Assembly: GCF_021412625.1 (NCBI RefSeq)
Contig: NZ_JAKCFI010000006.1
Span: 248,001-312,000, forward strand
Reading direction: 5' to 3'
Source of the DNA: Myxococcus stipitatus
Lineage (GTDB): Bacteria > Myxococcota > Myxococcia > Myxococcales > Myxococcaceae
Length of the DNA stretch: 64,000 bases
Every line of letters begins with the position of its first letter. The stretch's first letter is position 1. Of this stretch, positions 51,743 through 54,479 are shown one piece after another. The translations under genes and the position numbers were made by a program. The notes under the pieces were generated by a model that was not told where the DNA came from, searched no databases, and was given only the letters and a program-made list of their open reading frames with translations.

Positions 51743-54028
51743 TCAGGTGGGCAACGGCTGGCCCAGGCCCTTGCTGATCGCCTCCTCGACGATGGCGCGC
51801 ACCTTCTTCTGGGCCTCGCGGTTGACCTCCTCGAACCGCTCACTGAGCTTCTCCTGCTGCTCGCCCAGCTTCTCCTGCTGCTCGCCCAGCTTCTCCTGCT
51901 GCTCGCCCAGCTTCTCCTGCTGCTCGCCCAGCTCCTCCTGCTGCTTGCCCAGCGCCTCCATCTGGCGGTCGAGCTCCTCCTCCTGCTTGTCCAGCTCCGC
52001 CTCGCGCCGGTCGCGCTCGGCCTCGGAGAGCGAGCCCAGGCGCATGCGCTGCAGGCCCAGGCCCGACTTCTCGTGGCCCACCTCCGCCTGCTTCATGCCC
52101 AGCGCCGCCTGCTTCATCCCCAGCTCACCCATCTTCTGGCCCAACGCGCCCATCTTCTCGCCCAGCTCGCCCATCTTCTTGCCCAGCTTGGACTGCTCCT
52201 CGCCCGACGCGCGCAGCGACTCCAGCGTGCCCCGCACCGCCTTCAGCGTGGCCTCGTCGCGGATGATGAACGCCTCGCCATTCAGCCGGGCGAACAGCAG
52301 CGGCGGTCCATTCTTCTTCCGGAACATCCGCGCCAGCTCCAGGTCCGTGGTGGTGCCGCTCATCGTGGCCGTGTTCTCGTCGACCATGAGCACGTAGCCA
52401 AAGCCGTCGTCGCTGATGGAGGGCGGGCGCGGAGGACGAGGCGGGGTGGGAACGGAGGGAGCCATGGCCAGCCGGTGCGGCGGCGGAGGAGCGGGCGGCG
52501 TGGGGAGCGTGGCCCACGACGAAGGCGTGCTCGGCGCCGACGGCGCGGTGGGCACCGCCATGGCGGACGGCGTGGCCCGCACCGGGGGCGTGCCCGGCGT
52601 CGACGGCGCGGCGGGCTGGGAGGGCACCGCCACCGCGGACGGCGTGGCCCGCACCGGGGGCGTGCTCGGCGTCGACGGCGCGGACGGAGCCGCGCTGGCG
52701 GCGGGCGAGATCCGCTCCACGGACTTCGCAGCCGAGGCGGGCGTGGCCTGGGGCTTCGCGGAGGTCGCGACCACCGGCGCCGCCTTCGTGGAGCGCGGGG
52801 CCTCGGGCTTCGCCGAGGGGGCGGCCGCGGAGCGGGAGTCCCCTTCCGAGGGCCTCGCCACCACCTGGTACGGCACCAGCGCCGCGAGTCCGAGGGCGGA
52901 GAGGGCCACCTTCAGCCACCGCCGGGATGGAGGGGAAACGACGTCGACGTGCTCCAGCATGCTCAACCTCCTGTGCAAGACATGAACGTGGTCGGAAGCG
53001 CCCAGCGCGGCGGCCGTGCCGTGGGGACGGGCCACGCCGAAGACGAGCAACAGCTCGCCGTAGTCCGCAGGCTCCGCGCCGGTGAGGCGCAGCGCCTCCG
53101 CGTCACAGGCCTCCTCGCGGGCCAGCGCGTACTCACGGGCCACGCGCCGCGCGAGCGGATGGAAGAAGAGGAGCGCCTCCGCGAGCGCCGGCACCCAGCC
53201 GAGCCACAGGTCGCCACGTCGCAGGTGCGCCACCTCGTGCGCCAGCGCCATGCGCAATCCCTCCACCGGCAACCGCCGCACCGCCTTCGACGGCAGCACC
53301 ACCACCGGGCGCGCCAGTCCGGTGGCCAGCGGGCTCGGCGCCGCGTCCGACACCAGCAGGCCCGGCACGCGCCGCAGCCCCGCGGCCCGAGCCAGCGCGC
53401 GCATCTCCATCTCGAGCGCGGGGTGTTCCAGGACACGCGCCTGACGGCGCAGCGCGCGCATCCGCGTGAAGCCGCGCAGGTGCTCTCGCACACGCCACAG
53501 CACCCCCATGAGCCATGCGCCCGACAGCGCCAGGAAACACCACCCCATCCACGTCTCGCGGGGAATCGCCCTCAGCCGCGCCAGCGGCGAGACATCGCGC
53601 GCCTGCGCCGAGGCTCGCGCCGAATCGCGGGCCGCCGGCGCTCCAGCCGCCGTGGCGACGAGTGGCCGCGTCCCCTCCGGCGCCGCCGTGGCGACGAGTG
53701 GCCGCGTCCCCTCCGGCGCCACCGTGACGACGAGCGGCCGCATCCCCTCCGGCGCCGACGCGACGGCGAGGGTGGGGCGTTCACCCGTCTCCCGCGTGGA
53801 GGGCAGCAGCGGCAGCGCCACCGGCCGCGGGCCGACGAGCGCCACCACGAACTTCAGCGCGACGAGCCACCACAGCCCCGCACGCAGCGACGCAGGCATC
53901 CGCGGCCAGCACCGCGTGAGCCCCCACGCCAGCACGGCGCCCAGCGCGCCCTGCCACGACGCACGCCACAGCCCTTCCGCCCACGAGGCCATCCACGCGG
54001 ACAGGTCCATCATCCCAGCCGTCTCCAT
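51743..54028 (-). CDS. M56 (BlaR1-type) metallopeptidase with long coiled-coil tail
   Basis: 761 residues. N-terminal membrane helices (WQGALGAVLAWGLTRCW, LRAGLWWLVALKFVVALVG), a repetitive loop with three PEG(M/T)RPLV units (~80-115), another helix (WMGWCFLALSGAWLMGVLWR), then the zinc-protease domain with LAHEVAHLRRGDLWLGWVPA (HExxH) and downstream AREEACDAEAL. After the final membrane helix comes a Pro/Ala/Thr linker (~400-560) with duplicated TPPVRATPSA blocks, a small domain (~565-630: GFGYVLMVDENTATMSGTTT) and a coiled coil ending in five identical heptads. On sensing a signal it should cleave the BlaI repressor. Its SD (AAGGAG) lies in the blaI-like gene end, 3-bp gap: coupled. Confidence 0.88.
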   Translation of the reverse strand: METAGMMDLSAWMASWAEGLWRASWQGALGAVLAWGLTRCWPRMPASLRAGLWWLVALKFVVALVGPRPVALPLLPSTRETGERPTLAVASAPEGMRPLVVTVAPEGTRPLVATAAPEGTRPLVATAAGAPAARDSARASAQARDVSPLARLRAIPRETWMGWCFLALSGAWLMGVLWRVREHLRGFTRMRALRRQARVLEHPALEMEMRALARAAGLRRVPGLLVSDAAPSPLATGLARPVVVLPSKAVRRLPVEGLRMALAHEVAHLRRGDLWLGWVPALAEALLFFHPLARRVAREYALAREEACDAEALRLTGAEPADYGELLLVFGVARPHGTAAALGASDHVHVLHRRLSMLEHVDVVSPPSRRWLKVALSALGLAALVPYQVVARPSEGDSRSAAAPSAKPEAPRSTKAAPVVATSAKPQATPASAAKSVERISPAASAAPSAPSTPSTPPVRATPSAVAVPSQPAAPSTPGTPPVRATPSAMAVPTAPSAPSTPSSWATLPTPPAPPPPHRLAMAPSVPTPPRPPRPPSISDDGFGYVLMVDENTATMSGTTTDLELARMFRKKNGPPLLFARLNGEAFIIRDEATLKAVRGTLESLRASGEEQSKLGKKMGELGEKMGALGQKMGELGMKQAALGMKQAEVGHEKSGLGLQRMRLGSLSEAERDRREAELDKQEEELDRQMEALGKQQEELGEQQEKLGEQQEKLGEQQEKLGEQQEKLSERFEEVNREAQKKVRAIVEEAISKGLGQPLPT
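51848..51952 (-). repeat. Five 21-bp tandem units encoding (L/E)GEQQEK heptads
   Basis: Units start at 51848, 51869, 51890, 51911 and 51932; the first four are identical at DNA level and the fifth has three changes. They form the C-terminal coiled coil of the M56 protein. Perfect DNA identity suggests recent slippage expansion. Confidence 0.85.
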
Positions 54029-54031
54029 GGG

Positions 54032-54415
54032 CTACTCCTTGCGCTTCTGCGAGCGAAGCCGCGCCACCACGTCCTGGAGCTGTTGCAAATCCGCGTCCGA
54101 GACATCGTCGGCCTCGGAGAGGTACGCGGCGAACGGGGACAGCGAGCCGGACAGGGTCCGCTGCACGAAGTCTCCCACCACGTCCCGCAGCAGCTCCCCG
54201 GCCGGCACCGGCGAGGCGTACTGGTACACGCCGTCCACCTTCCGCCGCGTCAGGTAGCCCTTCTGCCGCAGCCGCTCCATCACCGTCAGGATGGTGGACC
54301 GCGCCAGCCCTTGCGGCTCACCGAAGCGCTCCGCCACCTCTCCCACCGTCGCGGGCCCGTGCTCGGCCACGTACCGCAGCACCGACAACTCCTGCTCTCC
54401 CACCGGCTTCTTCAT
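54032..54415 (-). CDS. BlaI/MecI/CopY family repressor
   Basis: 127 residues, full length. Winged helix: PVGEQELSVLRYVAEHGPAT, VGEVAERFGEPQGLARSTIL, TVMERLRQKGYLTRRKVDGV, YQYASPV; then the dimerisation helices FVQRTLSGSLSPFAAYL and DLQQLQDVVARLRS. It should repress its own operon by binding the two palindromes just upstream and be inactivated by the adjoining M56 protease. ATG 54415 has GAGG six bases upstream. First gene of the operon. Confidence 0.94.
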   Translation of the reverse strand: MKKPVGEQELSVLRYVAEHGPATVGEVAERFGEPQGLARSTILTVMERLRQKGYLTRRKVDGVYQYASPVPAGELLRDVVGDFVQRTLSGSLSPFAAYLSEADDVSDADLQQLQDVVARLRSQKRKE

Positions 54416-54425
54416 GGATGCCTCT

Positions 54426-54479
54426 GTGACGACAGCTGTAGTCACGAAGCAAGGTACGCGTGACTACAGCCGTAGTCAA
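54426..54479 (-). promoter_or_regulatory. BlaI-type operator pair embedding the blaI/M56 promoter
   Basis: Two palindromes matching TGACTACAGCNGTAGTCA with one or two changes: 54426-54445 and 54460-54479, centres 34 bp apart. On the minus strand TTGACT (54474-54479), a 17-bp spacer and TACCTT (54451-54456) form a sigma70-type promoter; one operator covers the -35 and the other the start region. This is the layout expected for autorepression by BlaI. No second copy was seen elsewhere in the window. Confidence 0.85.

Follow-up and report, generated by a model that had tools for sequence, protein, structure and literature searches.

BlaR1 is known as an antibiotic-resistance receptor. The Staphylococcus aureus protein combines an H201ExxH motif with an E242xxxD motif and has an N-out/C-out topology, and its partner repressor BlaI is cleaved at the N101-F102 bond, as stated in PMC9834060. 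In the locus described here, the protease/repressor half of such a system is joined to a predicted hairpin module that apparently is also secreted as a separate protein, and the module is represented in two phyla. Among the papers listed by full-text searches of the open-licence PMC literature, none describes, judging by title and the beginning of the abstract, the hairpin module or a myxobacterial BlaI/M56 pair.

The M56 gene, which encodes a protein of 761 amino acids, is located on the minus strand (51743-54028) of the window, that is, the whole analysed stretch of 64,000 nucleotides from Myxococcus stipitatus (contig NZ_JAKCFI010000006.1), directly behind the gene for a BlaI-type repressor (Table 1). 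A Pfam search assigns the core to Peptidase_M56 (PF05569) with an E-value of 9.1e-34 and 117.4 bits against a gathering score of 31. The H264ExxH motif corresponds to H201ExxH of BlaR1, and the spacing from the histidine to the glutamate of the second motif is 41 residues in both proteins, according to PMC9834060. The top Foldseek matches of the M56 protein are the cryo-EM models of S. aureus BlaR1 (8exq, E 2.3e-5), and VIA-align superimposes 209 residues between positions 54 and 386 on BlaR1 with Z 13.6 and an rmsd of 5.0; the full-length AlphaFold2 model is weak overall (pLDDT 65.2, pTM 0.36). A hydropathy scan recovers three of the four expected membrane segments, with the first predicted helix falling below the threshold. 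Given the BlaR1-like core and the topology reported for BlaR1, the protein is expected to be periplasmic from approximately residue 390 onwards. No penicillin-binding or transpeptidase family is detected in the protein at E<=1 in Pfam or NCBIfam, and the NCBIfam model blaR1_generic reaches 57 bits against a cut-off of 400 and covers the protease part only. These results support the claim of an earlier reading of this DNA, made from the letters alone (hereafter, the sequence-only reading), that the M56 protein is devoid of a penicillin-binding domain; within the scope of these searches, no BlaR1-type beta-lactam sensor is found.

Table 1. Features of the BlaI/M56 locus in window coordinates; the alignment of 17 sequences includes one acidobacterial member.
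Feature	Positions	Strand	Evidence
BlaI-type repressor	54032..54415	-	Penicillinase_R, E 6.5e-25 (Pfam); MecI and BlaI structures by phmmer
Putative operator palindrome 1, GACGACAGCTGTAGTC	54428..54443		Motif scans of the window, loci and genomes
Putative operator palindrome 2, GACTACAGCCGTAGTC	54462..54477		Motif scans of the window, loci and genomes
M56 (BlaR1-type) membrane metalloprotease core, residues 20-358	52955..53971	-	Pfam PF05569, Foldseek, VIA
Zinc motif H264-E-V-A-H268	53225..53239	-	H264, E265 and H268 invariant in 17 aligned sequences
Second gluzincin motif E305xxxD309	53102..53116	-	E305 and D309 invariant in the 17-sequence alignment
36-bp x 3.1 repeat, loop between helices 46-65 and 157-196	53646..53757	-	TRF; disordered, not conserved
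Pro/Ala-rich linker, about residues 392-541	52406..52855	-	pLDDT <50 for 382-474 and 476-540
Base domain (beta-beta-alpha-beta-beta) of the module, residues 543-590	52259..52402	-	AlphaFold2; 17-sequence alignment
Hairpin arm 1, residues 592-666	52031..52255	-	AlphaFold2; near-constant length
Hairpin arm 2, residues 669-752	51773..52024	-	AlphaFold2; near-constant length
Run of four identical 21-bp units within arm 2 (LGEQQEK x4, residues 700-727)	51848..51931	-	Direct listing; TRF
C-terminal end, residues 753-761, strand 756-758	51746..51772	-	AlphaFold2; conserved G..P ending

The 10.1-Mb host genome contains six M56 matches, the window gene included. Among the other five, one gene encodes a TonB_C domain, one encodes an SLT transglycosylase domain, and the remaining three show no tail family above its cut-off; both the hairpin module and the operator pair are absent at all five of these loci. 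Within the window protein, the loop that contains the 36-bp repeat is predicted to be disordered (pLDDT below 50 for residues 66-121 and 123-157 of the full-length model), and the repeat is not common to the orthologues in the 17-sequence alignment. The repeat itself is real, but because it is neither conserved nor predicted to be ordered, the proposal that this repetitive loop acts as the sensor finds no support and is rejected. The Pro/Ala-rich linker houses a further repeat (72 bp x 1.9, 52550-52683, TRF), and its length ranges from 51 to 242 residues across 45 rows, some of which are duplicates.

The open reading frame of blaI is open from 54445, and the ATG at 54415 is probably the actual start because the operator at 54428-54443 falls inside the longer version. 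The two putative operators precede blaI and are 34 bp apart, start to start. A scan of the window with up to three mismatches yields 5 operator matches compared with 0.37 expected, a number that none of 100 shuffles reached; the five consist of the two sites, each counted on both strands, and one match with three mismatches elsewhere. Among the 25 Myxococcaceae-type loci (L007-L031), the operator pair is present in all 25 and a BlaI gene is found upstream of the M56 gene in 23, the exceptions being L027 and L028, both of which also lack the module. Of 21 genomes, all chosen because they contain the module, 19 have the strict operator pair at the locus of the module, and the other two retain one strict site. 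In the acidobacterial locus L129, the second operator site is imperfect; another acidobacterial locus with the module, L032, has no operator of the GACGACAGCTGTAGTC/GACTACAGCCGTAGTC pattern, and the separate module genes of loci L115-L128 have no BlaI-type operator at >=13 of 14 positions.

A remote regulon was sought in the genome of the window and was not found. One further site with two mismatches (L036) and two strict matches (L171 and L172) were detected, all three inside predicted coding sequence, so that there is no second intergenic operator at up to two mismatches or by strict degenerate match; with three mismatches, the sites are no more numerous than in the reversed control (42 versus 69 strand-wise matches). 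Given that the only intergenic pair found at these stringencies precedes blaI, regulation by the switch seems largely confined to its own operon in this organism. The autoregulatory loop is not closed everywhere, however, because one other genome (G385) contains a second operator pair at a gene for a small predicted membrane protein and another one (G384) contains a single site in a similar position.

The part of the protein that follows the linker was described in the sequence-only reading as a small domain and a separate coiled-coil tail. Both elements are indeed present; what had to be replaced is the division between them, because the structure prediction suggested in that reading gives a single module in which two antiparallel arms emanate from the base. 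An AlphaFold2 model of the tail alone, built with 16 homologues and as a monomer only, has a pLDDT of 93.3 and a pTM of 0.69 and consists of two strands, a short helix, two more strands, a helix of 75 residues, a break of two residues, a helix of 84 residues and a short strand. In the full-length model, the same region, from residue 541 on, is predicted in ten-residue blocks at pLDDT 82-95, the last residue excepted. Thus, as predicted, the module is an antiparallel helical hairpin on a base domain that is closed by the C-terminal strand, and G754 and P758 of this C-terminal end are invariant in the 17 aligned sequences.

In 16 members scanned, the base domain of the module has no meaningful Pfam match (the best E-value is 0.0069, and each family is matched in one member only), and an NCBIfam search with 10 module proteins returns, besides BlaR1-type and HtpX protease matches, only matches of the coiled-coil kind below the cut-offs. 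The structural neighbours of the tail are antiparallel hairpins, namely EmrA, MSMEG_4306, the iSH2 region of PI3K, the dynein stalk and SMC arms; in the Foldseek search with the tail alone, no E-value reaches 0.001, the best being 0.0077. A tail profile compared with PDB sequences matches best Sc-apCC-2-KLHL20-4 (E 4.7e-4), followed by spike S2' constructs, KIF21A and further coiled-coil proteins, and viral models give nothing at E <= 0.001. The module is a defined domain, without an entry in the Pfam copy searched, that can be looked for elsewhere.

The lengths of the two arms are matched, which provides a sequence-level argument for the antiparallel hairpin. When measured from the base to a motif past the turn and from this motif to the end, the distances are (87,83) in 23 of 34 distinct Myxococcaceae tails, (88,83) in 8 and (81,76) in 3; hence, 31 of the 34 tails agree with one another in arm lengths to within one residue, and the three shorter tails differ from the (88,83) group by seven residues, that is, one heptad fewer, in each arm. 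Two members (L106 and L112) show, by eye, almost no insertion and a similar C-terminal ending, which, together with the matched arms, fits a hairpin inserted between two neighbouring elements of the core. Two cruder tests lend no support to a central turn. With a naive turn finder, the arm lengths were not positively correlated (r -0.34, Spearman -0.27, n 26), as the base proline or Gly repeats dominate its choice, and with a restricted turn finder, applied to 27 members, the result varied with the size of the window used (a turn as central arose in 7, 187 and 91 of 400 shuffles for sizes of 7, 10 and 14, respectively); duplicates and truncated or doubtful loci were left out of both tests.

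The four identical 21-bp units singled out in the sequence-only reading are real, and TRF gives this repeat as 21 bp x 5.1 at 97%. Among the tails tested, which are part of those fetched, four identical consecutive units occur only in the window gene, and the others have one to three. Nevertheless, the window gene has the commonest arm lengths, which it shares with 22 other distinct tails, so that the units are best explained by local homogenisation and not by a longer coil; lengthening of the coil by repeat expansion is accordingly ruled out. The comparison of heptad counts proposed in the same reading thus reveals no free variation between species across the 34 distinct tails.

A genome scan detected 27 relatives, namely the 25 Myxococcaceae-type loci, an Acidobacteria MAG in which the tail is present (L032), and a distant M56 protein without the tail (L033). 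Among the 25, the tail is complete in 15 and missing in 2, and the other 8 loci are cut off before it. One of these loci (L011) is an orthologue in the record of M. xanthus strain AM003, so that what BlaR1-like proteases without a penicillin-binding domain sense becomes testable in M. xanthus. In the window's phylum, 195 genomes were compared with a profile of the base domain, which matches in at least 64 of them (26 of 27 in the genus, its own genome included, 35 others in the family and 3 in the order); for Acidobacteria, the phylum of L032, the first profile matches in at least 8 of 297 genomes, two of the eight being near the limit of 0.001, and a broader profile in at least 15 of 148 genomes of one class. 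All these counts are lower bounds because scoring was limited to 20, 30 or 40 candidates in each genome. Plasmid records contain no relative of the L032 tail. The M56-fused module with an adjoining BlaI gene is also found in four other loci of the acidobacterial phylum (L129-L132), which share the operator design of module-bearing M56 genes, and L032 itself contains an ORF that appears, by eye, to be BlaI-like.

The search for the small domain in other proteins, another suggestion of the sequence-only reading, showed that the base domain, which matches no Pfam family, also exists apart from M56 in Acidobacteria and in a myxobacterial family, in proteins most of which have a signal peptide. The separate module ORFs are mostly 137-304 residues long, stop to stop. 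By a crude hydropathy rule, a signal peptide is scored in 16 of 19 such ORFs, a set that includes L104, which, like L057, is probably not a true member, and the partial L112. The separate module of L055 has no signal-peptide score and contains, by eye, a lipobox. Some of the separate modules are encoded in adjacent pairs, as is the case for L054/L058 and also for L165 and L166 in genomes of the window's order. Taken together, the signal peptides of the separate versions and the BlaR1-like core, with the N-out/C-out topology reported for BlaR1, indicate that the tail of the M56 protein is very probably periplasmic, in line with the external location assumed from the sequence.

These observations are, in our view, fairly likely to reflect an autoregulated BlaI/M56 switch of the BlaI-BlaR1 design that responds to a different input, with a periplasmic hairpin sensing the state of the envelope or a partner. 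In such a switch, BlaI bound to the operator pair would repress its own operon, and the M56 protein would span the inner membrane with the zinc site towards the cytoplasm, so that the disordered Pro/Ala linker beyond the last transmembrane helix would carry the hairpin module into the periplasm. An envelope cue, most likely a protein or a wall component bound or released by the hairpin, might then alter the state of the membrane protease, and the altered protease would inactivate BlaI, leading to expression of the operon and thus to production of more receptor, if the response runs in this presumed direction. Given that the protein contains no recognised antibiotic-binding part and that the stalk-like module seemingly is secreted alone by some other bacteria, the condition of the cell envelope, and not the presence of penicillins, is probably what the system monitors. 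The earlier suggestion that the external part senses force or protein partners is retained in so far as a protein partner or an envelope signal is plausible; for force, there is no evidence either way. A tether, in which the hairpin and the linker anchor the protease in the cell wall or the outer membrane and react to tension or to the distance spanned, would be compatible with a disordered linker of 51-242 residues and a predicted rigid hairpin. However, a fivefold difference in linker length is hard to reconcile with a spacing ruler, Pfam reveals in the tail no known family that binds the wall or a membrane, and separate versions without the M56 anchor exist; we consider this arrangement improbable. 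The BlaI partner and the BlaR1-like protease would also be expected of a true receptor for beta-lactams or peptidoglycan fragments with an unrecognised ligand-binding part; given that no PBP-type family is detected and that, at the stringencies examined, no second intergenic operator that could drive a resistance gene was found in the host genome, such a receptor seems highly improbable.

The remaining alternative treats the module as a Skp- or prefoldin-like holdase arm, so that the M56 receptor would sense unfolded envelope proteins and the secreted versions would be stress-induced chaperones. The motif GCTAAC-N15..17-CGT, which we take to resemble a sigma-E-type (ECF-like) promoter, has 7 occurrences in the 177,847 bases of 18 loci, all of them just upstream of a separate module gene, and it is present in 7 of 14 loci with separate modules; because the loci were picked for the module, these counts speak for a fixed position but not for specificity. 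Across six genomes, a stricter version of the pattern is no commoner than its reversed control (11 versus 10 matches), and its matches comprise five before modules and six before other ORFs that start, by eye, with export or membrane signals. In 4 of the 14 fetched loci with separate modules (L117, L120, L122 and L124), the module is followed by genes for M16 peptidases, of which the second one in L120 was assigned by clustering only, and this context also would suit a chaperone. PMC8144458 likens Skp to a jellyfish whose tentacles are alpha-helical and places its gene under sigma-E control; the small base with its long helical hairpin resembles this description, which makes a holdase-like sensor attractive. 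Four of nine module proteins match OmpH (PF03938, the Skp family) with E-values of 2.7e-4, 0.041, 0.069 and 0.1, and the window protein does so with 0.96, but all these matches are below the gathering score (21.6 bits for the best relative versus 32.4) and fall for the most part in the helices, which unrelated families of coiled coils match too, and there is no Skp among the PDB fold matches listed. A holdase accordingly appears rather doubtful as the primary explanation. A broader proposal, that the module (base, inserted scalable hairpin and closing strand) is a quality-control device for envelope proteins, is one that we regard as unlikely, and the same grade applies to the two uses that it implies: in Acidobacteria and some myxobacteria, the module would be secreted and act as an ECF-sigma-driven holdase, and in BlaR1-type proteases that lift repression by BlaI, it would be the sensor. 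If true, BlaR1-type receptors would add one more kind of envelope-stress circuit to those based on anti-sigma-factor proteolysis and on two-component systems.

Among described systems, the periplasmic adaptor EmrA (4tko; VIA Z 11.5, rmsd 2.4, 126 residues) and MSMEG_4306 (5y05; Z 12.6, rmsd 5.4, 165 residues) contain similar antiparallel hairpins, where a Z below about 13 may merely reflect a common arrangement of long helices, and CT398 (4ilo) is another protein with such a hairpin; the EmrA/HlyD adaptors differ in that no HlyD-type Pfam family is detected in the M56 protein at E<=1. The likeness to Skp/OmpH is one of general layout, by description, and consists of a small body, long helical arms and envelope-stress control. 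The other five M56 proteins of the host genome, also without a PBP domain, share the PF05569 family with the window protein but not the module or the operator pair. BlaR1 and MecR1 of S. aureus and B. licheniformis differ from the system described here in their recognised, acylatable C-terminal PBP-type sensor, the place of which is taken by a disordered linker and the hairpin, and in their operators, which front a beta-lactamase or PBP2a gene, whereas the only intergenic pair found here, at the stringencies examined, precedes blaI. The residues of the window's BlaI that align with the scissile N-F of S. aureus BlaI, as given in PMC9834060, are Y-L, which makes cleavage at such a bond doubtful. 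What the two systems have in common is the M56 gluzincin core, the predicted fold, the adjoining BlaI-type repressor and the palindromic sites before the repressor gene.

The gene for a multi-PAS histidine kinase, which is divergent and adjoins the operators preceding blaI, is matched at the same place in some relatives only, and the ALDH-like gene downstream is missing in three relatives (L011, L012 and L026). A syntenic Myxococcus-type locus is present in a record labelled Comamonas sp. KCTC 72670 (L030, BNCN01000017.1), with the neighboring ALDH-like, BlaI and OMP genes at 75-91% identity; this record is probably mislabelled or contaminated. The stretches from relatives L017-L019 and L021-L025 stop within the Pro-rich linker or ahead of it, in most cases where the contig ends or close to that point, and the GC-rich repetitive region may break assemblies here.

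Two Myxococcus species possess a second, reduced copy of the system (L027 and L028). Both copies retain the operator pair and an M56 gene without the hairpin module; no blaI was found in either. By eye, the 3' end of blaI seems to be left as a remnant in L027, and an NRPS-like ORF adjoins this copy.

Outside the blaI-M56 locus, operators occur in two module-carrying genomes, G384 and G385. The associated ORFs as called consist of 129 codons in G385 (locus L168) and 104 codons in G384 (locus L169), their starts being uncertain.

Features at and beyond the blaI-M56 locus
Feature	Location	Remark
Multi-PAS histidine kinase gene	window:54536-56938	
Reduced copy	L027:3880-5230	
Reduced copy	L028:3816-5170	
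Further operator pair, G385	L168:2592-2639	5' end of small predicted membrane protein gene
Single operator site, G384	L169:1488-1503	5' end of small predicted membrane protein gene
Separate protein	L092:1072-1947	Signal peptide, two base domains
M56 paralogue	L004:400-2403	Followed by short repeated motifs, VTPEYIQAL-like (by eye)
M56 paralogue	L005:772-2481	Fused to SLT transglycosylase domain (E 1.5e-18)

In the separate module protein (L092), almost no hairpin follows the first base domain and a hairpin is present after the second. Among the M56 paralogues encoded in the genome of the window, the SLT fusion (L005) possibly represents another wall-linked M56 receptor.
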